Below, one piece after another: positions 56,175 through 64,000 of a stretch of 64,000 nt of DNA (its first letter is position 1; the number at the start of each line of letters is the position of its first letter). Made by a program: the position numbers and the translations under genes. Source of the stretch: an uncultured Paracoccaceae bacterium (GTDB taxonomy: Bacteria > Pseudomonadota > Alphaproteobacteria > Rhodobacterales > Rhodobacteraceae); assembly GCA_947494445.1 (NCBI GenBank), contig CANLVD010000013.1, positions 44,344 to 108,343 of the forward strand, given 5' to 3'. The notes beneath the pieces are model-generated. The model was given only the letters and a program-made list of their open reading frames with translations. It ran no database searches and was not told where the DNA came from.

Positions 56175-56250
56175 GCGCCCATCGTCTAGTGGTCTAGGAC
56201 GCCGCCCTTTCACGGCGGAAACACGGGTTCGAGTCCCGTTGGGCGTGCCA
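56175..56250 (+). tRNA. tRNA-Glu (anticodon UUC)
   Basis: 76 nt. Acceptor stem GCGCCCA / TGGGCGT, D-arm, anticodon stem CCGCC/GGCGG with loop CTTTCAC (anticodon TTC at 56209-56211), T-arm with GGTTCGAGTCC, and encoded CCA at 56248-56250. The first pair of the acceptor stem is G-U. The 3' end is the target of the mobile element to its right and is left intact. Confidence 0.96.
56228..56250 (+). other. Left attachment site (att) of the mobile element
   Basis: The T-arm and acceptor 3' half of tRNA-Glu (TTCGAGTCC... to CCA) are the usual core for tyrosine integrases. The integrase gene begins its stop 8 bp further right. The partner att copy is expected beyond 64000; none was seen inside the window. 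Exact core length cannot be set. Confidence 0.55.
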
Positions 56251-56257
56251 CTTCCAT

Positions 56258-57370
56258 TTATTTCTCCTTACCTCTCAATGGTTTACTGTCGATATTGTCC
56301 AACCTATTTGAAAGGTTGGACACATTCCGTTCCTGATTTGCACTTCGCAGCTTGGCAAAGCCGCTGTCAGTTAAGCGACTTTTGTCAGCCTTTTTTGTGT
56401 AGGTGGATGCCTGTTTTGTGTTGCTGTGGGCGAGATATGCAGCAATCTCATTCTCTGTCGCGCCTGCGTTGGCCAAGCGTGTAGCGCCTGCTTTTCGCAA
56501 ACAGTGTAGATGCCAGTGGTCCAATTTGGCCAATTTGCATTGATCCTTGAACCAGTTTGCCAATGTCGCAGGTTGATAACGCCGCCCCTTTCCATGAGTC
56601 AGGAAAAGCAAAGCATCTTTTGGCAACTGGTCGATCTCGGCTTTGAGTTCTGGCAAAATTGGAAGGGTTGTTCCTTCCCAAGTTTTGCCCCTCTTGTAGT
56701 CAAATCGCCCTGCCTTGATGTTCTGCCATCCCAGCCCACAAAGGTCCTGACGTGCTGCGCCTGTGTTCAGGATCAATTCAAGCGCTAGGCGAGCCTTAGA
56801 GCCGCTGTGGTGACACTCCCTGAACTGCTCTATCTCATGATCTGTAGCAGTGTGATAGCCATCAGGGTTTTCTTTGAAACGAGTTGCAAGACGTGCGGGA
56901 TTAACTGTTAGCAGTTCCAACCGAATTGCGTGGTTGAACAAAAGGGAAAGCAGTTTCTTGACCTTGTTCGCCGCAGACGGTCCCGACTTCTTGCCCATCA
57001 ACGCCTCAACGTGTTTCAGTTGAAAACGATTAAACGGCAGGTCGCCAACTTCGCCTTGAAGCCAAGCTATCTCAGCATCTTTGTTTAGTTTTGAGACTGC
57101 GGAAAGGTCTCGATACTTAGGCGACTGCCTGTAACTGTGGATCAGCCAATGAAAAGTACCAGGTTTGATCCTGTCAAACTTGGTCGCGCCGTCTGGACGT
57201 ATGCCAACGCAAGCTTTCTCATACTCAGAAACAAACTGTGCAGACCCGTAGTCGCCATGCAAATAGCAATCAATCATCCGACCATTGACGCGACGACGAA
57301 ACCGCCAACGACGCTTGCCATGACGATCTGGCGCACGAGACACGCCGGGAAAGGGGTTTCTTCGCCTCAT
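56258..57370 (-). CDS. int: Tyrosine recombinase / phage integrase
   Basis: 370 aa. N-terminal DNA-binding region rich in Arg (residues 1-35), a core-binding domain (SPKYRDLSAVSKLNKDAEI onward) and the catalytic domain: Arg in NTGAARQDLCGLGW, the HCLRKAGATRLAN box with His and Arg, then AHSNTKQASTYTKKAD with the second His and the nucleophile Tyr. Its 3' end is 8 bp from the tRNA-Glu CCA. It overlaps the small HTH gene by 4 bp, so it is the last gene of the leftward operon. Confidence 0.94.
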   Translation of the reverse strand: MRRRNPFPGVSRAPDRHGKRRWRFRRRVNGRMIDCYLHGDYGSAQFVSEYEKACVGIRPDGATKFDRIKPGTFHWLIHSYRQSPKYRDLSAVSKLNKDAEIAWLQGEVGDLPFNRFQLKHVEALMGKKSGPSAANKVKKLLSLLFNHAIRLELLTVNPARLATRFKENPDGYHTATDHEIEQFRECHHSGSKARLALELILNTGAARQDLCGLGWQNIKAGRFDYKRGKTWEGTTLPILPELKAEIDQLPKDALLFLTHGKGRRYQPATLANWFKDQCKLAKLDHWHLHCLRKAGATRLANAGATENEIAAYLAHSNTKQASTYTKKADKSRLTDSGFAKLRSANQERNVSNLSNRLDNIDSKPLRGKEK

Positions 57371-57612
57371 GGTGCCAACAACCTATCGCAAGGATTGTTT
57401 TGGCCATCAGCACTGTCAGTCGGCGCAACCAGTAAGGCTTCTTCAAGTTCGGATCTGATCCAGACTTTGACGCTACCCATAATCCTTGGAGCAGGCATTT
57501 GCCCCGTCTCAACCATTTGGAGAAAGTAGGACGCACTCACGCCAACATGTGCCGCCGCGTGGGCCTGCCTCATTGCTGCCGGTGCTGTGATAGGTTCAGT
57601 TCGCTTGCCCAT
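57367..57612 (-). CDS. Small AlpA/excisionase-like DNA-binding protein
   Basis: 81 aa. The helix-turn-helix region HVGVSASYFLQMVETGQMPAPRIMGSVKVWIRSELEEAL matches small AlpA/Xis-type proteins placed beside integrases, which direct excision. The start is supported by a strong AGGAGG site; the stop overlaps the integrase start by 4 bp. Direct evidence for excision activity is absent. Confidence 0.75.
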   Translation of the reverse strand: MGKRTEPITAPAAMRQAHAAAHVGVSASYFLQMVETGQMPAPRIMGSVKVWIRSELEEALLVAPTDSADGQNNPCDRLLAP

Positions 57613-57636
57613 ACTCGCCTCCTGTAAAATCTCGGC

Positions 57637-57672
57637 ACCTTTCCCTCAAAAGAGCGCGGGGAAGGGAAAGGT
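57637..57672. repeat. 10-bp inverted repeat upstream of the AlpA-like gene
   Basis: ACCTTTCCCT and AGGGAAAGGT (57637-57646 with 57663-57672), perfect arms with a 16-nt spacer, in the 145-bp gap between the capsid and AlpA-like genes. It could be a terminator, a processing site or an operator controlling the AlpA-int end of the operon. No gene lies in the gap. Confidence 0.5.
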
Positions 57673-57757
57673 TTGGATCAGGCTTGCCGAATAGCCTGTG
57701 ATTACCCCGCTGGCCGTTCTGGCGGACAAAACCAAATGGACGCCAGACCAGATTGCG

Positions 57758-59197
57758 TTAAGAAACTGGCGTCTTGTACCAGCTTGCAGTTTCGATAAAT
57801 TTCGCATCCACCGCCCAGATCAGACGCATTTCCATGCCCAGAGTTGACCATGCAGGGCGCGTCTCGACGCGTGGTGCGGACTGGCCTTCAAGGAAAGCAT
57901 GGCTTAGACCGTCAAACCGCGTTGGATCACCAACAAGATACCAAGCATCTTCTGGCAAGTTGGGTTCAACAATCAGTTGCAGCGTGTTCGAGTAAGGATT
58001 GATTTCATCAACCGTGGTCGCACTCAGTTCAGCCAAGACTTTTTGACCCGCACCTTCAAGCTCTGCCGGAACCAACAAGCCCCAAGGTTCAACCGAATAG
58101 AGCTGGCCCTGCGTGTCTTTTTGTTTGCGCATTGCCAACCGCGCCCGGTCAAGGCCCGTCACAGAAATTGCCACCGATGTGGTGGCAACATTGCCATGCG
58201 ATGAATGGAACATGGCCTGCCCATCGTTCATGGTTTGACCGTCACCGCCATTTGCCAAGATAGGCTCAAGTAGTACAGCCCGAAAACGCTCAATCGCCCC
58301 CCGCACCATTCTGTCGGACGCTTGCGTCAACAGATCAAGGCGGTCATTCTGAATGGCCCTGTTGGTGAGGTTAAAGCCTGCTCCAAAGTCTCTTGGCGTC
58401 GGCAGGTTCTCACCCTTTTCATCCATGGTCACGAATTTGATCTCACCGGCCTCACCGATCTCTTGAGGCATACCTGATGCAGAAAGCGCGATTGATTGAC
58501 CCTCGTGATAGGTATCACGCTCAACTTCACGGGATACCCGAACAAGGTCAGGCTCACGCTGATCAAATTGACGCGCAACAACGTTGGACATCGAGTCTGA
58601 TACGATGAGCGGAAAATCCGAAGTCGTATGGCCAGCCATTTGAACGGCTTGAGCCACATTAAATGGACGTTCGCCATTGGCTTTTGCGACGGCCATTGCA
58701 ACGTCGCCCAGCTTCATCCCAGCAAACTCACGACCAAGTGTCGGTTCGTGTTTTGGATCGAGACGCGCAGTCAGGCCATCAACCAACTTTGCCCGGAAGC
58801 CCGCGCCGTTTTCCCATGACCGACCTACACCAGTCAGACCGTGTGCGGTGGCGGGTCCGGGCGTATGTTCGACCGTGTCACCTTCCTTCTGCCACTCAAT
58901 AACGAACTTCTCATAAAGTAACTCGGAGAACGCATCTGCGCTGTCAGCCTTTGGATCGCTCACCGCAGCGGTAACCACTTCTGCCACTTTTTCTGGCGTC
59001 AGCCCCATGATCTTGGCCCCCTCCAACTTTGGAGCAACCTTTGCCAGAAAACCTTGCGCCTGCGAGGCCGGAAGCCCCCAAGAATGCAGTTTAGTGCTAA
59101 GCTGATCTGTCATTGTCTCCGAAAAACCAGCCTTTTGGCCTTCTTTGCGGACCACGGCCAAAAAACGGGCCGGGATTTGAGTGTTATCAAGCGGCAT
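57758..59197 (-). CDS. Phage major capsid protein (Mu gpT-like)
   Basis: 479 aa. The C-terminal half resembles Mu gpT-type major head subunits: QFDQREPDLVRVSREVERDTYHE, RGAIERFRAVLLEPILANGG, and the end DAWYLVGDPTRFDGLSHAFLEGQSAPRVETRPAW with a terminal aromatic stretch. The N-terminal 150 residues are helical and may serve as a scaffolding region. Starts behind an AAGGAG site and overlaps the protease gene by 11 bp. It should assemble a capsid with the upstream protease. Confidence 0.85.
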   Translation of the reverse strand: MPLDNTQIPARFLAVVRKEGQKAGFSETMTDQLSTKLHSWGLPASQAQGFLAKVAPKLEGAKIMGLTPEKVAEVVTAAVSDPKADSADAFSELLYEKFVIEWQKEGDTVEHTPGPATAHGLTGVGRSWENGAGFRAKLVDGLTARLDPKHEPTLGREFAGMKLGDVAMAVAKANGERPFNVAQAVQMAGHTTSDFPLIVSDSMSNVVARQFDQREPDLVRVSREVERDTYHEGQSIALSASGMPQEIGEAGEIKFVTMDEKGENLPTPRDFGAGFNLTNRAIQNDRLDLLTQASDRMVRGAIERFRAVLLEPILANGGDGQTMNDGQAMFHSSHGNVATTSVAISVTGLDRARLAMRKQKDTQGQLYSVEPWGLLVPAELEGAGQKVLAELSATTVDEINPYSNTLQLIVEPNLPEDAWYLVGDPTRFDGLSHAFLEGQSAPRVETRPAWSTLGMEMRLIWAVDAKFIETASWYKTPVS

Positions 59198-59813
59198 GTT
59201 TCCCGCTCCTTTTCTGCTCGTGTTTAGACGTATCGGACGCCCAGCCGTAGTCTTTGACCATGCGGATCAAGTGATCCGGGGCCGCTTTGAATTTGGTGTA
59301 ATTGAATTGAGCAATGGCGATGCTGTCAGCACCAGCCCCCTCAATCCGGTCAATGAAATTCAGCGCCAGCGCTTCTTCCGCTGTCAGCCAAGTTTCTTCA
59401 TGCATCCATGCCTTGATCAGTTCAAAACTGTTGCCGGTCGCATCCGCATAAGCCTTGGCATAAACATCACTCAGCTTGTCCAGCGTCTCAGCCGTGCCTC
59501 TGTGATCTGTGGCGGTTCCCATTGTGAAGCCGCTGGGGTCATGGATCATGAACATGGCCGATGGATGCATGACAATCTCAGCACCGCCCATGGCCAGAAG
59601 GCTTGCAGCAGATGCACACATGCCCTGAATGTTGATTGCGACACTGCCATGGCGCTGGATCTCGGCCAAGATTGCAGCACCCTCAAAAGCATCGCCACCG
59701 GGAGAATTCACAACAAGTGTTGCTTGATCCGGGTTCGCCAAAAGATGTGCGGACACGTCCCCTGCGGTGTTCGGTTGCTCACCAATAATGCCTGAGATTT
59801 GGAAAGCGGTCAT
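59187..59813 (-). CDS. ClpP-type head maturation protease
   Basis: 208 aa. ClpP/SppA fold: VVNSPGGDAFEGAAIL, the nucleophile Ser region MCASAASLLAMGG and the His region FMIHDPSGF, with EEALALNFIDRIEG near the C-terminus. It should process capsid or scaffold during head assembly. Overlaps the HTH gene upstream by 4 bp and the capsid gene by 11 bp. Confidence 0.88.
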   Translation of the reverse strand: MTAFQISGIIGEQPNTAGDVSAHLLANPDQATLVVNSPGGDAFEGAAILAEIQRHGSVAINIQGMCASAASLLAMGGAEIVMHPSAMFMIHDPSGFTMGTATDHRGTAETLDKLSDVYAKAYADATGNSFELIKAWMHEETWLTAEEALALNFIDRIEGAGADSIAIAQFNYTKFKAAPDHLIRMVKDYGWASDTSKHEQKRSGKHAA

Positions 59814-60403
59814 TCTTTATCACCTTGAACTGATCCAGCAACTTTGAATAGTTTGAAACCATCCATGACATAGCCAGCGGCCCGCGCTCGATCCTTGGCC
59901 CGGTCCAAGATAAATTGCATGGATTCTGTTTTGAAGTTGACGACGCCAAGCCGTTCAATCTTTGATCCGTCGCGAGCCTCAACCTTTGAGCCGTACTTCT
60001 CGACCGATTGTACAAGGGAATGTGCGATTTCATCTGGGGTGTGCAGTCCGCTATACGCGGCGTCACGAAAGCCTATTACCGGGTCTGTATGGCAGTCCCG
60101 GTAATAGACAAAGAATACTGAGCGAACATCCTTGCCAGCAATATAATCCGTCAGAAATCGATCAATGCAGGCAAGGCGGATTGCAGAACTGGCGGCTTTC
60201 AAGCTCATTCCACCGGCTTGAACTACAGACAGCAATTCATAGGCGAGCAAGTCACCGCCATCAAAGGACCTCTGCTTTCCCTCGCCTTTTTTCTGCTCAA
60301 CCGGAGCTTCTTCGAGGTGCAGTTGTCGCCTTATTGTATCGCGGTTCAGGCCAAGAATATTTGCAAATTCACTAACCCGAACCTGTCCACGCGCCTCTGA
60401 CAT
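59810..60403 (-). CDS. HTH DNA-binding protein, element-encoded
   Basis: 197 aa. N-terminal helix-turn-helix like MerR or terminase small subunits (VSEFANILGLNRDTIRRQLH, residues 10-29), a basic/Glu-rich linker (EQKKGEGKQRSFDGG), and a C-terminal region with VIGFRDAAYSGLHT. Starts after a hairpin-forming repeat and behind AGGAGGG. It might regulate the head genes that follow or recognise DNA for packaging; undecided. The stop overlaps the protease start by 4 bp. Confidence 0.7.
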   Translation of the reverse strand: MSEARGQVRVSEFANILGLNRDTIRRQLHLEEAPVEQKKGEGKQRSFDGGDLLAYELLSVVQAGGMSLKAASSAIRLACIDRFLTDYIAGKDVRSVFFVYYRDCHTDPVIGFRDAAYSGLHTPDEIAHSLVQSVEKYGSKVEARDGSKIERLGVVNFKTESMQFILDRAKDRARAAGYVMDGFKLFKVAGSVQGDKE

Positions 60404-60428
60404 GCCACCCTCCTAAGTGTGTCTTACA

Positions 60429-60455
60429 ACACCACACTAAAATAAAGTGTGGTGT
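60429..60455. repeat. 10-bp inverted repeat before the HTH gene, candidate operator
   Basis: ACACCACACT and AGTGTGGTGT (60429-60438 with 60446-60455), 7-nt AT spacer, in the 65-bp gap between the three small genes and the HTH gene. It sits 25 bp before that gene's start. A site for that HTH protein or an attenuator is likely; not proven. Confidence 0.55.
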
Positions 60456-60468
60456 GGTGCAACACATT

Positions 60469-60681
60469 TTAATTATTGAGCGTCGGCGAATTCGAACAAT
60501 CCAATGCTGAGGTCAGGTCATTGGTGAGGTTCTTCAAGGTGAGCACAATCGCGGCACAGCCTTCAAGCGCCTCCCGGCCACTTTCTTCATGCAGCAGAAA
60601 CAATGCATCGGCCAGACCGCTGATCTGGTTTGCGAGGGGTTGCAGGCCCTCTAGGTATTCACGCTGTTCATCGTCGGTCAT
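60469..60681 (-). CDS. Small helical protein, paralogue 3 of a tandem triplet
   Basis: 70 aa. Pattern QISGLADALFLLHEES then a gap then IVLTLKNLTNDLTSALD, which lines up with the two genes upstream. All-helical, acidic, no signal or membrane segment. Its start overlaps the previous gene's stop by 4 bp (ATGA). Function unknown; not a recognised family. Confidence 0.6.
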   Translation of the reverse strand: MTDDEQREYLEGLQPLANQISGLADALFLLHEESGREALEGCAAIVLTLKNLTNDLTSALDCSNSPTLNN

Positions 60682-60920
60682 TGGACTTCCTCCATTTCCT
60701 GTTGCGCCCTCAAAGCTTTAAAATATGCCTTGGTCCGTTGGCCCTGCGCTGCCTCAAGATCGTTGGCAAGTTGGGCGGTCAAATGCTTGAGAACCCAAAG
60801 CATCGATGTGATCGCGTTGGCCTCACTGCCTTGAAAGTTGTCGTTGTCGAGCGTGCAAAGCCCCTCAACCATTCCGGCAATGTAAACAGCCTGTGTTTCT
60901 GGATCTGGCTTGAGGGTCAT
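60678..60920 (-). CDS. Small helical protein, paralogue 2 of a tandem triplet
   Basis: 80 aa. Pattern YIAGMVEGLCTLDNDN then a gap then SMLWVLKHLTAQLANDLEAAQ lines up with its neighbours at the same spacing. All-helical with a Glu/Gln-rich C-terminus. Both ends overlap adjacent genes by 4 bp, so it is co-translated. Function unknown. Confidence 0.6.
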   Translation of the reverse strand: MTLKPDPETQAVYIAGMVEGLCTLDNDNFQGSEANAITSMLWVLKHLTAQLANDLEAAQGQRTKAYFKALRAQQEMEEVQ

Positions 60921-61246
60921 GATTGCGCCCTCTTTAGCTGGCTTTCCAAAGTTTCGAGCGCATCAATGTGGGCAACCGACAAAGGACGGAGAACGGTCAG
61001 GATAGCAAGCAAAGCATCCAAGCTGATCTCATGCGTTTCACCCAGTGCGGCGCGCTCAAACACGCACAAAGCATCTATGAGGCCAGAAATCTGGTAGGCG
61101 CACGAGACTTCTGCAGCCAAGATTTTCTGCTCCTCAGGCGCATCACTGTTCAGGGTGGTCTTGGCAAGATGTGACCTAATTTCCCCAAGGATCGGATCAT
61201 CAGACAAAACGGTATTGTTCGCCAAAACGGCGTTTGCATTGCTCAT
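60917..61246 (-). CDS. Small helical protein, paralogue 1 of a tandem triplet
   Basis: 109 aa. A less ordered N-terminal 45 residues precede the shared core QISGLIDALCVFERAALG, gap, then LLAILTVLRPLSVAHIDALE. It is the first gene of the leftward operon, behind a GGAGAAC site and the promoter at 61282-61310, divergent from the XRE repressor. Function unknown. Confidence 0.6.
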   Translation of the reverse strand: MSNANAVLANNTVLSDDPILGEIRSHLAKTTLNSDAPEEQKILAAEVSCAYQISGLIDALCVFERAALGETHEISLDALLAILTVLRPLSVAHIDALETLESQLKRAQS

Positions 61247-61281
61247 TGCTATGTTCTCCAGTTATGGTAATTGTAACGATG

Positions 61282-61310
61282 TTATTATTCCAACACCTAC
61301 ACACCGTCAA
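61282..61310 (-). promoter_or_regulatory. Candidate leftward promoter of the element operon
   Basis: On the minus strand TTGACG (61310-61305), 17-bp spacer, TAATAA (61287-61282), about 35 bp upstream of the first small gene start. It lies in the AT-rich gap beside the divergent XRE repressor, a fitting place for repressor control. Inference. Confidence 0.5.
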
Positions 61311-61335
61311 CATAAATTATAACATGGTTGCAAAA

Positions 61336-61557
61336 ATGAACCCAGCGCAATGTAAAATGGCTCGTGCTGCTCTTGGTTTGGGCGTTCGAGAACTGGCCAA
61401 CATCTCAGGGGTATCGCAAGGAACAATCTCAAGACTTGAGCGTGGTGAAGACTTGAAACTCACCACAATATTCATCATCCAATCAGTCCTCGAAGGTGAG
61501 GGGATAATCTTTATACCGGAGAATGGTGGTGGGGCTGGTGTGAGGTTGAGGAAATAG
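61336..61557 (+). CDS. XRE-family repressor of the element
   Basis: 73 aa. MNPAQCKMARAALGLGVRELANISGVSQGTISRLERG is the common phage-type helix-turn-helix N-terminus; the tail has EGIIFIPENGGGAGVRLRK. Start at 61336 is chosen by that family pattern; an ATG at 61324 is in frame. Divergent from the leftward operon over about 90 bp. Likely represses that operon; no ribosome site is obvious, so it may be leaderless or weakly translated. Confidence 0.8.
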   Translation: MNPAQCKMARAALGLGVRELANISGVSQGTISRLERGEDLKLTTIFIIQSVLEGEGIIFIPENGGGAGVRLRK

Positions 61558-61559
61558 AA

Positions 61560-61790
61560 ATGGAAATCGAAGAACTGGAAGACCAGATTCAATCTCTTGA
61601 GTCCGAAGTCGCCTTCTTAAGGGATCAAATCAATTCCCAAAGCAATTTCGTAGCCGAGTTACTTGGAAGGCTTGCCCATGAAAACGGTATCGCAAAGGAT
61701 TTAGGGATGCCAAATGACCCGCCATTGACGGGTCACTATGAGCAGCACCTAGAAATTATCCTGAGTTATAATCGTGGAGCGAACCTATAG
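61560..61790 (+). CDS. Small coiled-coil protein beside the repressor
   Basis: 76 aa. The first 35 residues (MEIEELEDQIQSLESEVAFLRDQI) form a heptad coiled coil rich in Glu/Leu; the rest is hydrophilic. Starts 3 bp after the repressor stop, so it is co-transcribed. It could dimerise, modify the repressor or act on other proteins; unknown. Its last 6 bp overlap the convergent antirepressor gene. Confidence 0.6.
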   Translation: MEIEELEDQIQSLESEVAFLRDQINSQSNFVAELLGRLAHENGIAKDLGMPNDPPLTGHYEQHLEIILSYNRGANL

Positions 61791-62603
61791 CAGATGGTTT
61801 GCTCCTGCTTTGGGAAGGAGGAATGGCAAATACGGAAGCGCTGCCGGGTCACGCGTATTGAAATAACGCTCGGCATGGTCTGGAATCCATACGTCATCAA
61901 CGTATTCCATAAACAGCGCAGCCAACGCACGTGGATACATTCGAACTTCACCCTCCCACTCGTCGGTCTTGTGTTTGTAGAAAGAATACTCCCCACAAAC
62001 ATTCGGATGATTTTCATTCAACCATTTTGCGAATAGCTGCCCAACACTTCCGTCAGGACGAATTTGAACGCCATTCGGGGCCCGATCCGCCATCGTATGG
62101 CCAACCATTTCCAGACGCCCCCAAAGTCGGTACGCCAGCTCATTGATCACCGAAAAATGCGTGGACGGCACTCGATCCCAATTTTCATTGAAGCGTTTAA
62201 TGAATGCTGGAACCTTACCATTATACGACCCAGTCTTTCGGATCGATGGAAGCACCTCTGACGTAATCCACTTCTTGAACCGCTTTGCCTCCGGCTTATC
62301 TGATCGCAGGATCGCACTGTAGAGTCCCGATTCATTGATTATAGTTACGCTCTGTTTGCCACCAAGGGTGTCAATCTGAATGACACCCTTTTCATCATCA
62401 TCTAAGCGACTGGAAATACTACGTGAATTCTTCACGCCAAGACGAATTGCGACATCCGAAAGGAAAAACCAAGGCTCTCCTTTTCTATCCACGACGCGAA
62501 AGTCATCACGGTCTTCATATTCGAACACCTGCATCGTAAACTGCATGGCCATAACGTTTGCCGCTTGCCTTCTCTCAAGGCTGACTGGTCCAAGATTACT
62601 CAC
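61785..62603 (-). CDS. BRO-N domain antirepressor
   Basis: 272 aa. N-terminal BRO-N domain: GEPWFFLSDVAIRLGVKNSRSI, GVIQIDTLGGKQSVTIINESGLYSAILRSDKPEAKRFKKWITSEVLPSIRKTG. The C-terminal half (about residues 130-272) is of unknown type. Phage antirepressors with this domain counter a repressor to trigger lytic or excision genes. Starts at a GTG behind AAAGGGG. Convergent with the repressor unit. Confidence 0.85.
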   Translation of the reverse strand: MSNLGPVSLERRQAANVMAMQFTMQVFEYEDRDDFRVVDRKGEPWFFLSDVAIRLGVKNSRSISSRLDDDEKGVIQIDTLGGKQSVTIINESGLYSAILRSDKPEAKRFKKWITSEVLPSIRKTGSYNGKVPAFIKRFNENWDRVPSTHFSVINELAYRLWGRLEMVGHTMADRAPNGVQIRPDGSVGQLFAKWLNENHPNVCGEYSFYKHKTDEWEGEVRMYPRALAALFMEYVDDVWIPDHAERYFNTRDPAALPYLPFLLPKAGANHLL

Positions 62604-62822
62604 TGCATTTCCCCTTTCCGGGATTGCTGCGCGACAACGAAGACCTTGACTGAGCCAGATTCGTGAGGCTAGACATCAGTCATTGGGAGGTTCTGCGTGA
62701 CCGCGCGGTTTCCGATTTCGCCGGGACACAATCACCACAAAAGTGTCCCGGCACCCAATCTCTGAAACTTATTCGATTCATCGCTTGTGAGTCTAGCCCA
62801 ATGTACGCGGTTCGTTCCGCTG
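62604..62822. other. Structured non-coding gap between antirepressor and terminase small subunit genes
   Basis: No credible gene. Contains a perfect 10-bp hairpin GCCGGGACAC / GTGTCCCGGC (62720-62729 with 62743-62752) and two crossing long-range pairs: GGCTAGAC (62667) with GTCTAGCC (62791), and CATTGGG (62681) with CCCAATG (62797). It could hold a cos/pac packaging site, a small RNA or operators. Inference. Confidence 0.4.
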
Positions 62823-62825
62823 CCT

Positions 62826-63323
62826 TTATGTTTCAATTCCCACCAGTACCTGCAAATCAGTGTCGCTCAACTCTTGCAACGCATCCCTGACATCAGCCTC
62901 CAACACCGCGCCAATTTGGTCCATTGTCCGATCAACGCACCGTGGTGCCGCCTTGGACGGCAGTGAAAGCAATCTAGCCCTAACTCGCGAGAATGCACCG
63001 ATCACAGCGGCATCAACGTCAGATCGCTCTAGGAGACTCCCTGCGGCTTTCTCAGCGGCCATTTCCGCCAGACGGGCCTCAGCCTCCAATTTGCGCTTTC
63101 GGGCGTCCTCGACCGTCCCAGAGTCTCCACGGGTGTTTTTTGTGTCCCTCTCCCGAAGCCAACCAACCACAACAGCCAGGTCAAACACGTAGGACTTCCC
63201 AGCCCTGCCCGGTGCACTGTCAAACGGAAGGCCCGCCTGAATGTACCGATCAAGGGTCTGTGTAGTGATATCCAGCATCTTGGCCAGTTGGGCTTTGTTC
63301 ATCTTCCTGCTTAACTCGGTCAT
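62826..63323 (-). CDS. Terminase small subunit, Nu1-like
   Basis: 165 aa. N-terminal winged helix (MNKAQLAKMLDITTQTLDRYIQAGLPFDSAP) with PGRAGKSYVFDLAVVVGWLRER, then a long coiled coil (DARKRKLEAEARLAEMAAEKAAGSLLERSDV) and a helical end, the layout of Nu1-type DNA-packaging proteins. It would recognise the packaging site. ATG at 63323 has a better ribosome site than the GTG at 63329. No large subunit gene is next to it. Confidence 0.82.
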   Translation of the reverse strand: MTELSRKMNKAQLAKMLDITTQTLDRYIQAGLPFDSAPGRAGKSYVFDLAVVVGWLRERDTKNTRGDSGTVEDARKRKLEAEARLAEMAAEKAAGSLLERSDVDAAVIGAFSRVRARLLSLPSKAAPRCVDRTMDQIGAVLEADVRDALQELSDTDLQVLVGIET

Positions 63324-63374
63324 AGACACTTACCTTTCTGGTTTCAGTCTCTAGAAAAATAATGGGGTCGCGAA

Positions 63375-63590
63375 TTACCCACGATGCAGACCCTTTGGAA
63401 GGACCCGATATGGTTGGGGGAACACATCAAGACGTTCAAAAAAGTTTCTCAATTCAAAGACAATTGACCTTTGAAAAAACAAAAGCTCCGAAGCATGATC
63501 GTGACCATTGTCAAGCAAATGGGTAAAGGTTGCTATCACCTTCCAAACAGCTTTTGAGGTGCACCCTTCAACCGACCCTAAGATGCCCAT
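63375..63590 (-). CDS. Small protein of unknown function, coupled to the next gene
   Basis: 71 aa. Its ATG overlaps the upstream stop as TAATG and is preceded by GGGGAG. Pattern KVIATFTHLLDNGHDHASELLF is helical; no family recognised. The start coupling favours a real gene, but composition does not settle it. Confidence 0.45.
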   Translation of the reverse strand: MGILGSVEGCTSKAVWKVIATFTHLLDNGHDHASELLFFQRSIVFELRNFFERLDVFPQPYRVLPKGLHRG

Positions 63591-63838
63591 TAGGCACTCC
63601 CCGCAGGCTTACCGACCGCCCAAGCGCGGTCATGGCTTGGCAGGATCTCACAGCGCTCAGCAGCGCCCCTGCATCGCTCAGCCGCAACCTTACCACCGTA
63701 TGCGGCTGCAATCTCACCAATGGCTGTAGCGTGCGCGCAGCTCAGAACAATCTGTGGCTTGATGCCCAACCGGATCAGTTCTTCCATGACGCCTTGGATT
63801 GCCAAACGTGCTGTTTCGATTTGATATTCGTCAGTCAT
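63590..63838 (-). CDS. Small protein of unknown function
   Basis: 82 aa. Starts at 63838 behind GGAG, 5 bp after the 44-aa frame stop. Helical N-terminus (YQIETARLAIQGVMEELIRLGIKPQIV) and a Gly/Ala-rich end with two Cys (ERCRGAAERCE). Ends in TAATG shared with the next gene. Unrecognised. Confidence 0.55.
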   Translation of the reverse strand: MTDEYQIETARLAIQGVMEELIRLGIKPQIVLSCAHATAIGEIAAAYGGKVAAERCRGAAERCEILPSHDRAWAVGKPAGSA

Positions 63839-63843
63839 AAGTC

Positions 63844-63978
63844 TCATCTCCAATTCAGAGCCGGGTTACCGTCACAAACGTCACCCCCCTTAAGGGGGGT
63901 GTGACAACTGTGACGCTGGATTAACCGTGTCACTGCCGTCACTTGTGACGCTTTGTGACGCTTGTGACGGGTGTTCAT
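63844..63978 (-). CDS. 44-aa basic small protein spanning the hexamer repeats, doubtful
   Basis: Starts MNTRHKRHK behind GGAGGG and overlaps the preceding stop as ATGA. The coding runs over repeated CGTCAC/GTGACG hexamers, giving RHK and CH repeats. It may be real, or a by-product of a non-coding repeat array (see the repeat at 63870). Confidence 0.35.
   Translation of the reverse strand: MNTRHKRHKASQVTAVTRLIQRHSCHTPLKGGDVCDGNPALNWR
63870..63969. repeat. Cluster of GTGACG/CGTCAC hexamers with a 20-bp palindrome (iteron-like)
   Basis: CGTCAC at 63870, 63879 and 63937; GTGACG at 63910, 63945, 63955 and 63964: seven copies in 100 bp, the last three spaced 10 and 9 bp. A perfect 20-bp palindrome CACCCCCCTTAAGGGGGGTG lies at 63882-63901. 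It looks like a replication origin or binding array for an element protein. Inferred. Confidence 0.55.
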
Positions 63979-64000
63979 TCCTCGACCCTCCAAGCAAAAT
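63975..64000 (-). CDS. C-terminal end of a gene entering from the right edge
   Basis: Only seven residues, FAWRVEE and a stop, are visible, overlapping the next start as ATGA. A replication protein such as a primase would be typical here, but these residues cannot identify it. Confidence 0.3.

Follow-up and report, generated by a model that had tools for sequence, protein, structure and literature searches.

The stretch of DNA analyzed here, hereafter the window, comprises 64,000 nucleotides from an uncultured Paracoccaceae bacterium (C13:44344-108343 of genome G000, an assembly of 4.36 Mb in 33 contigs that is rated 99.98% complete). It is well supported that the end of the window (56236-64000) represents most of an integrated satellite-type element with relatives in several genera. 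Read away from a tRNA-Glu gene, the element consists of genes for an integrase, an AlpA-like protein, a capsid protein, a protease, a MerR-like helix-turn-helix (HTH) protein and three small proteins, all on the minus strand, followed by a repressor and a 76-amino-acid protein on the plus strand, and finally an antirepressor, a small terminase and an 87-amino-acid protein on the minus strand. The tRNA-Glu gene (ttc; 56175..56250, plus strand; ARAGORN) is the integration site, and the 20-bp core of the left attachment (att) site, attL, lies at 56236..56255 on the same strand. Adjoining it, as an earlier note based on the sequence had stated, is a tyrosine integrase of 370 amino acids (56258..57370; PF00589, expectation value (E) 7.3e-17; phrog_1, E 8.4e-36). 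The AlpA-like regulator or excisionase (57367..57612, 81 amino acids) gave no match in the Pfam scan and is recognized through phrog_25900 (transcriptional regulator, E 2.1e-8) and phrog_66 (excisionase, E 1.5e-4). The major capsid protein (57758..59197, 479 amino acids, with a helical, scaffold-like N-terminal domain) matches PF25209 Phage_capsid_4 (E 1.9e-28), phrog_4523 (E 1.1e-68) and the Mu-like gpT family PF10124 (E 1.4e-7), and its gene overlaps by 11 bp with that of a ClpP-type prohead protease of 208 amino acids (59187..59813; PF00574, E 4.5e-25; phrog_94, E 5.3e-55). The Nu1-type small terminase (62826..63329, 167 amino acids) matches phrog_57 (E 8.8e-31) and our own small-terminase profile (E 3.2e-21); against Pfam Nu1 it has an E of 4.4e-6 but 26.8 bits, under the cut-off of 30. 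The same note had named the AlpA-like gene, the gpT-type capsid, the ClpP-type protease, the repressor, the antirepressor and the Nu1-type small terminase, and all of these are upheld by the Pfam or PHROGs matches.

Searches with Pfam and dedicated profiles in the window part of the element turned up none of the portal, large terminase, tail or lysis families, in agreement with the earlier statement that no portal, large terminase or tail gene stood among the named genes. Pfam was also run on 125 open reading frames (ORFs; six-frame, at least 100 amino acids) from the window and four att-bounded close relatives, giving 20 families, none of them portal, large terminase, tail or lysis; the recognized integrase, protease, capsid, small terminase and Bro-N genes had been set aside beforehand, as had two ORFs crossing a locus border, one of which is the AlpA-like gene of G303. 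As the PHROGs search of these 125 ORFs gave the best 25 of 76 families, the absence is based on Pfam (all 20 families) and on the profiles. The latter were built from 79 lambda-type portals and 71 GpA-type large terminases and were searched unfiltered in six frames. They matched none of 11 elements (the window part, the close relatives L083, L085, G303 and L090, and six further elements described below, L091, L097, L098, L114, L117 and L189), nor the plasmid RHOAph or the incomplete loci L082, L084, L086 and L087. All four controls, each among the training loci, were matched by the same profiles; outside the training set, the portal profile matched 6/6 portal-bearing loci and the terminase profile 4/6, the two loci without a match being short.

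Contig C13 stops exactly at window position 64000. The last 142 bp (63859..64000, plus strand) are common with contig C3 at 99%, and the final 77 bp recur there identically, inside a second element of the same genome. Because contigs C23 and C24 also overlap by 77 bp, the window ends where the assembly broke off at a repeat. The second copy of the tRNA-Glu 3' end, which the earlier note had proposed to look for on the right, was found on contig C16 (68769-68788, minus strand), where 20 bp match attL without a difference, 373 bp short of the point at which the contig stops. By chance, about 8e-6 exact matches of this length would be expected in this genome (2 x 4.36 Mb / 4^20). Beyond this attR, the ORFs read, from their translations alone, as the glycogen-type genes pgm, malQ, glgX, glgA and glgC. 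A search with a 23-bp core and up to two mismatches recovered attL alone; a 13-bp core with one mismatch hit 16 places, the exact ones being attL and the C16 copy only, and the reversed control pattern hit 13. The DNA that follows tRNA-Glu in G001, a genome of the same genus, is not present in G000. On C3, the 77-bp repeat is followed by 1,171 bp including an AAA_25 replication gene, which we infer to belong to the window element too. The end of C16 holds the start of a gene that matches the terminal gene of the element in G037 (41% over 90 amino acids, E 3e-12), where a single 306-amino-acid gene separates this terminal gene from the AAA_25 gene. By that gene order, the gap between the end of the C3 repeat and the end of C16 would be about 1 kb, and the element is probably about 10 kb in size (7.77 + 1.17 + 0.37 kb + ~1 kb gap = ~10.3 kb), with the gap length taken from G037 and the gap itself unread; contigs C25-C33 and part of C24 are N in the sequence examined.

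A full set of tail, lysis, portal and terminase genes before the right att site, over about 35 kb or more, would characterize an ordinary tailed prophage, as the earlier note had pointed out. The partly estimated size of about 10 kb and the four relatives without such genes speak otherwise. It is very improbable that an ordinary prophage or a full capsid-forming phage-inducible chromosomal island (cf-PICI) has the missing genes hidden in the unread gap. The stretch from the C3 repeat to the C16 end is indeed absent from the readable assembly, the N contigs C25-C33 measure 215-1463 bp each, and the C3 element has a portal of a different family. However, the flanking genes are separated by only the one gene in G037, C25-C33 sum to 7.1 kb in an assembly of the completeness given above, and no lambda-type portal or GpA terminase occurs anywhere in it.

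Some capsid relative is held by 97/394 genomes of the family, and five of those 97, including the genome analyzed here, hold a whole close relative (the other four at 46-53% identity). A contig scan with the single capsid protein gave no relative, and one with an alignment gave 46. Another 390 genomes drawn from the order, overlapping in part with the first set, added no further whole close relative. Four close relatives are bounded by direct repeats: L083 of Roseovarius autotrophicus (tRNA-Pro, 50-bp repeat, 7.9 kb), L085 of Xinfangfangia pollutisoli (tRNA-Arg, 45-bp repeat, 8.8 kb), G303 (transfer-messenger RNA (tmRNA), 13-bp repeat, 9.03 kb) and G037, or L090, of Rhabdonatronobacter sediminivivens (tmRNA, 10-bp repeat, 9.96 kb). 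The G037 repeat, weak on its own, sits at the tmRNA position that holds the 13-bp core in G303, and the G303 integrase is 86% identical. The boundaries of the G343 element were sought and not found. Integrase, capsid and protease are present in 4/4 of the bounded relatives in the order HTH protein, protease, capsid, integrase, and the arrangement described earlier as uncommon is in fact a recurrent one. A sixth genome, G051, holds a fragment only, a 3-kb remnant between 48-bp tRNA-Cys repeats (L044:13009-16149) in which one ORF joins a primase-like part to the last 112 capsid residues. In a Natronohydrobacter metagenome-assembled genome (L082:925-2961), the protease and capsid of this clade form one 678-amino-acid ORF, as opposed to the two overlapping ORFs in the window.

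Among 98 loci of at least 7 kb, a lambda-type portal lies within 3 kb of the capsid gene in 81, further off in one and nowhere in 16, several of which are short or cut contigs. In a capsid tree of 99 rows, made by a quick method with support from the Shimodaira-Hasegawa-like approximate likelihood ratio test (SH-aLRT) only, the clade of the window contains nine capsids with support 100; six rows are capsid-only, three have unknown context, and no portal was detected for any of them. Outside the clade, the closest capsid relatives are mostly neighbors of lambda-type portals and GpA terminases. Across the tree, the capsid-only label (12 rows) requires seven changes, at least five of them forced by well supported branches. 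This points to several origins of the capsid-only state, the number of which is provisional because L117, L091, L114 and L097 sit on long branches.

The ratio of nonsynonymous to synonymous substitution rates (dN/dS) is 0.2-0.5 for the capsid (pairs above 45% identity; three more pairs were saturated) and 0.19-0.37 for the protease. These values, rough as synonymous sites are near saturation, indicate that both genes are under purifying selection. The Ser, His and Asp columns of the protease, whose roles we take to be those of ClpP, are kept in 8/8 sequences. A capsid model built from 89 sequences reached a predicted local distance difference test score (pLDDT) of 91.7 and replaced an earlier, poor model from five sequences (pLDDT 51). 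In it, an HK97-type fold follows a helical N-terminal domain (10-104) and a linker of low confidence (111-124). Foldseek matched the model to phage, satellite and encapsulin shells at probability 1.00, with template modeling (TM) scores of 0.3-0.4 by query and at most 0.6 by target. A protein-collection search with the capsid (7,997 candidates scored, 122 passed, best 120 examined) returned 60 proteins at 397-834 bits, the window's own included, before a drop to 270; 7/60 are at least 600 amino acids long. In IMG/VR, the best 80 of 301 matches have at most 34% identity to the window's capsid, and 104 of 50,697 phage records match it, with at most 30.2% identity among the 15 matches listed.

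These data also bear on the idea that the element is a remnant, a prophage or cf-PICI decaying after loss of its portal, large terminase and tail genes. Decay does occur in this family, as the chimeric remnant of G051 attests, and each of the multiple origins in the tree could be a loss. We nevertheless hold this idea to be improbable, as the same gene set with intact frames and att sites is found in several genera, the capsid and protease are under purifying selection, and the capsid clade has 60 proteins in the protein collection.

Six further elements and one plasmid pair a capsid with a protease and have no detected portal or large terminase. The six are L091 (28-bp repeat, 11.5 kb), L097 (51-bp repeat, 11.2 kb), L189 (45-bp repeat, 11.9 kb), L098 (14-bp repeat, 10.2 kb), L114 (18-bp repeat, 10.7 kb) and L117 (13-bp repeat, 9.6 kb), the repeats of L098 and L117 being weak on their own. 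Of their 97 ORFs with 150 or more amino acids, 87 were run against Pfam, and no portal or large terminase was found; the other ten are six capsids and four integrases. A tape-measure-type domain, PF10145, is present in L091:5591-8353 (minus strand, E 3e-29) and L189:4257-6302 (plus strand, E 2e-36), in genes thought to set head and tail size, and L114 has a weak tail-repeat match (E 2.4e-4, under the cut-off). These elements are thus not free of tail-type genes, and the description as shell-only is strictly true of the window's clade. The plasmid, RHOAph of Rhodovastum atsumiense (L282, NZ_OW485609.1, 10,690 bp), carries a protease/capsid fusion, a DUF3987 replication protein, ParA, a toxin-antitoxin pair and a weak head-closure match in one gene; portal and large terminase are neither annotated nor matched by the profiles. 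In total, capsid and protease occur together in 12/12 elements without a detected portal. The protease gene is separate, ClpP-type and beside the capsid gene in the window, L083, L085, G303 and L090, and it is fused to the capsid in the other seven, as a ClpP-type protease in L097, L098 and L189 and an S78-type protease in L091, L114, L117 and RHOAph. A new class of shell-only satellites, which would bring capsid and maturation protease, steal portal, packaging motor and tail, and have arisen several times in Proteobacteria, once as a plasmid, is a tentative proposal to which we give slightly less than an even chance.

For the window element itself, we consider it an evenly balanced possibility that the satellite builds its own shell around a portal stolen from a helper phage. 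The helper would lift repression, perhaps via the antirepressor; the integrase and AlpA-like protein would then excise the element from the tRNA-Glu gene, and the right-side replication genes would copy it. A shell would be assembled from the capsid protein and matured by the protease on the lambda-type portal of the helper, with the helical N-terminal domain acting as a built-in scaffold. The Nu1-type small terminase would steer the helper's GpA-type large terminase onto satellite DNA, and a helper tail would be added. The closest alternative is modeled on Ccm of the Staphylococcus aureus pathogenicity island (SaPI) SaPIbov5, a satellite capsid homologue described as entering small shells and needing the helper's capsid protein (PMC6893505; PMC5052747). 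The satellite capsid protein would join that of the helper in a mixed, smaller shell and would form no shell of its own. With no portal or large terminase, the SaPIbov5 case resembles the present one, and the predicted helical N-terminal domain could serve a Ccm-like role. Still, we regard this alternative as rather unlikely. An own shell is preferred over a mixed one mainly because the protease is kept: it stands with the capsid in all 12 elements, and a pure remodeler would not need it. In addition, Ccm is reported to be just 19-23% identical to the helper's capsid protein (PMC6893505; PMC5052747), and no other capsid of this family is encoded in the window's own genome.

The MerR-like HTH protein (59810..60403, 197 amino acids; PF13411, E 0.0017, under the cut-off) keeps its place beside the protease in relatives (G343 homologue, 28%, E 4e-23), and a protein search with it as query matched only itself. 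Of the three small proteins, that of 70 amino acids (60469..60681) has homologues in G037 and G303 (35-37%, E 2e-5 and 2e-7), and those of 80 (60678..60920) and 109 (60917..61246) amino acids match proteins of the C3 element at 81% identity and at 98% over 95 amino acids, respectively. The HTH_3 repressor (61336..61557, 74 amino acids; PF01381, E 5.5e-7) has its start set by comparison with relatives, the ORF opening at 61234, and is followed by the 76-amino-acid protein (61560..61790), probably a coiled coil, with weak Pfam matches all under the cut-off. The 87-amino-acid protein (63590..63853) has a homologue at the same place in G037 (41% over 82 amino acids, E 2e-10). The G+C content of the element is 51.5%, compared to 59.6% in 10 kb of left flank; in L083, element and flank are alike (64.6 and 64.7%).

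The Bro-N antirepressor (61785..62603; PF02498, E 1.8e-23) has a C-terminal part resembling the BstA phage-defense family (phrog_6287, E 9.5e-19; PADLOC BstA, E 1.3e-9). This part fits an interference-only element, in which capsid and protease would poison the assembly of incoming phages and the whole would be a defense island moved by its integrase, as does the report that Ccm alone strongly lowers helper phage titre (PMC5052747). Nonetheless, small terminase, replication genes and intact att sites better fit a packaged element, and among five window proteins run on PADLOC no gene apart from the antirepressor matched a defense model, which makes pure interference an outside chance.

Several observations weigh against a satellite-built shell on a stolen portal. 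According to the available text of PMC5052747, the SaPIbov5 capsid homologue does not replace the capsid protein of the helper. The profiles cover one portal and one terminase family and failed to pick up the C3 element's portal and large terminase, both of which Pfam detected, and the middle of the element's right part is unread, nine small contigs being N. A clear small terminase is present in just 4/11 elements (the window, L090, L098 and L117; that of G303 is a weak profile match, E 1e-4), and steering of the helper's large terminase therefore cannot be general. Finally, no lambda-type portal or GpA terminase was found anywhere in the window's own genome, so that a helper of this type has to arrive from outside; G343 likewise has neither. 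In favor of the model, both genes are present outside the element in 5/7 element-bearing host genomes, and Roseovarius autotrophicus SHN287 has seven lambda-type portal matches apart from its 7.9-kb element; as a sign of helpers this is suggestive only, given a control search positive in 3/14 well-known genomes that does not include the family's own background rate. Rhodobacter phages such as RcMamaDuck (41.8 kb) have the same head type together with portal and terminases.

Known satellites either reshape the shell of their helper or, as cf-PICIs, supply the whole head. If the proposal is true, a shell and protease without portal and motor would stand between both kinds and suggest a path from one to the other, and the joint between portal and shell would be an exchangeable interface, joining the shell of a satellite to the vertex of another phage. 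This turns an assembly question into a testable one, namely whether a shell can grow on another virus's portal and what sets the match. Because such elements lack portal and large-terminase markers, marker-based searches may miss them, and the low identities in IMG/VR beside 60 clade proteins in the protein collection may reflect such under-detection.

The second element in this genome (L004:1192-11260 on contig C3; tRNA-Cys, 45-bp att core, right end on C6, L231) shares control-region DNA (483 bp at 93.8%), the 77-bp break repeat and the DNA before the AAA_25 gene with the window element. Unlike the latter, it encodes a head set that belongs to a different family and resembles that of cf-PICIs (portal, S78 protease, HK97 capsid, HNH, large terminase and gp6 connector). 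It also carries AAA_25, and no tail gene was seen in the parts read. Directly beyond its right att site (L231:4501-9528) lies the next integrase, placing islands in tandem, and farther on a 920-amino-acid ORF reads, from its translation, like a type I restriction subunit. RHOAph resembles the window element in pairing protease with capsid without a detected portal or large terminase; it differs in being maintained as a plasmid that carries ParA and a toxin-antitoxin pair, and its capsid falls outside the window's clade (28% identity).

Among described satellites, phage-inducible chromosomal minimalist islands (PICMIs) are reported to carry integrase, AlpA, a DUF3987/DUF5906 primase and Fis, with no capsid genes in the available account (PMC10803314), whereas the window element has capsid genes, and DUF3987, DUF5906 and Fis were not found among its scanned proteins. 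PICIs and SaPIs with their own small terminase (TerS), thought there to redirect the helper's large terminase (TerL), are similar in that gene; as far as described in PMC12597102, they reshape the helper capsid with scaffold-type proteins and have no shell gene of their own, unlike the window element. The cf-PICIs encode capsid protein, protease, portal, connectors, both terminases and HNH and are reported to take only tails (PMC10690885; similarly PMC12409344). The window element is like them in its integrase, AlpA-like gene, own capsid and protease and small terminase (PMC10690885, PMC12409344, PMC10803314, PMC11389934, as far as these describe them). No tail family came up in its window part, and its estimated 10 kb compares with a reported cf-PICI mean of 14 kb. 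Portal, connector, large terminase and HNH were not found in it with Pfam and the portal and GpA profiles, about 1 kb being unread. The earlier suggestion of a capsid-forming satellite thus stands in its satellite part, with a right att site, an estimated size of about 10 kb and four relatives of 7.9-10.0 kb, but the cf-PICI label does not: by its predicted gene content, the element is not a cf-PICI as defined.

The literature surveyed, mostly at the level of titles and abstracts, describes no satellite with capsid and protease but no portal, and the nearest tested precedent is Ccm of SaPIbov5. Like SaPIbov5 and other cos SaPIs with Ccm, as far as their descriptions go, the window element is an integrated island with an HK97-fold capsid homologue bearing a helical N-terminal domain and without its own detected portal or large terminase, both of which the helper supplies in SaPIbov5. 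Unlike in those islands, where Ccm acts jointly with the capsid protein of the helper and a protease goes unmentioned in the available parts of the two sources (PMC6893505; PMC5052747), capsid and protease are here kept together, in Alphaproteobacteria and with a head of the lambda-family type. Judged from its genes, the element is an intermediate variant between Ccm-type islands and cf-PICIs.

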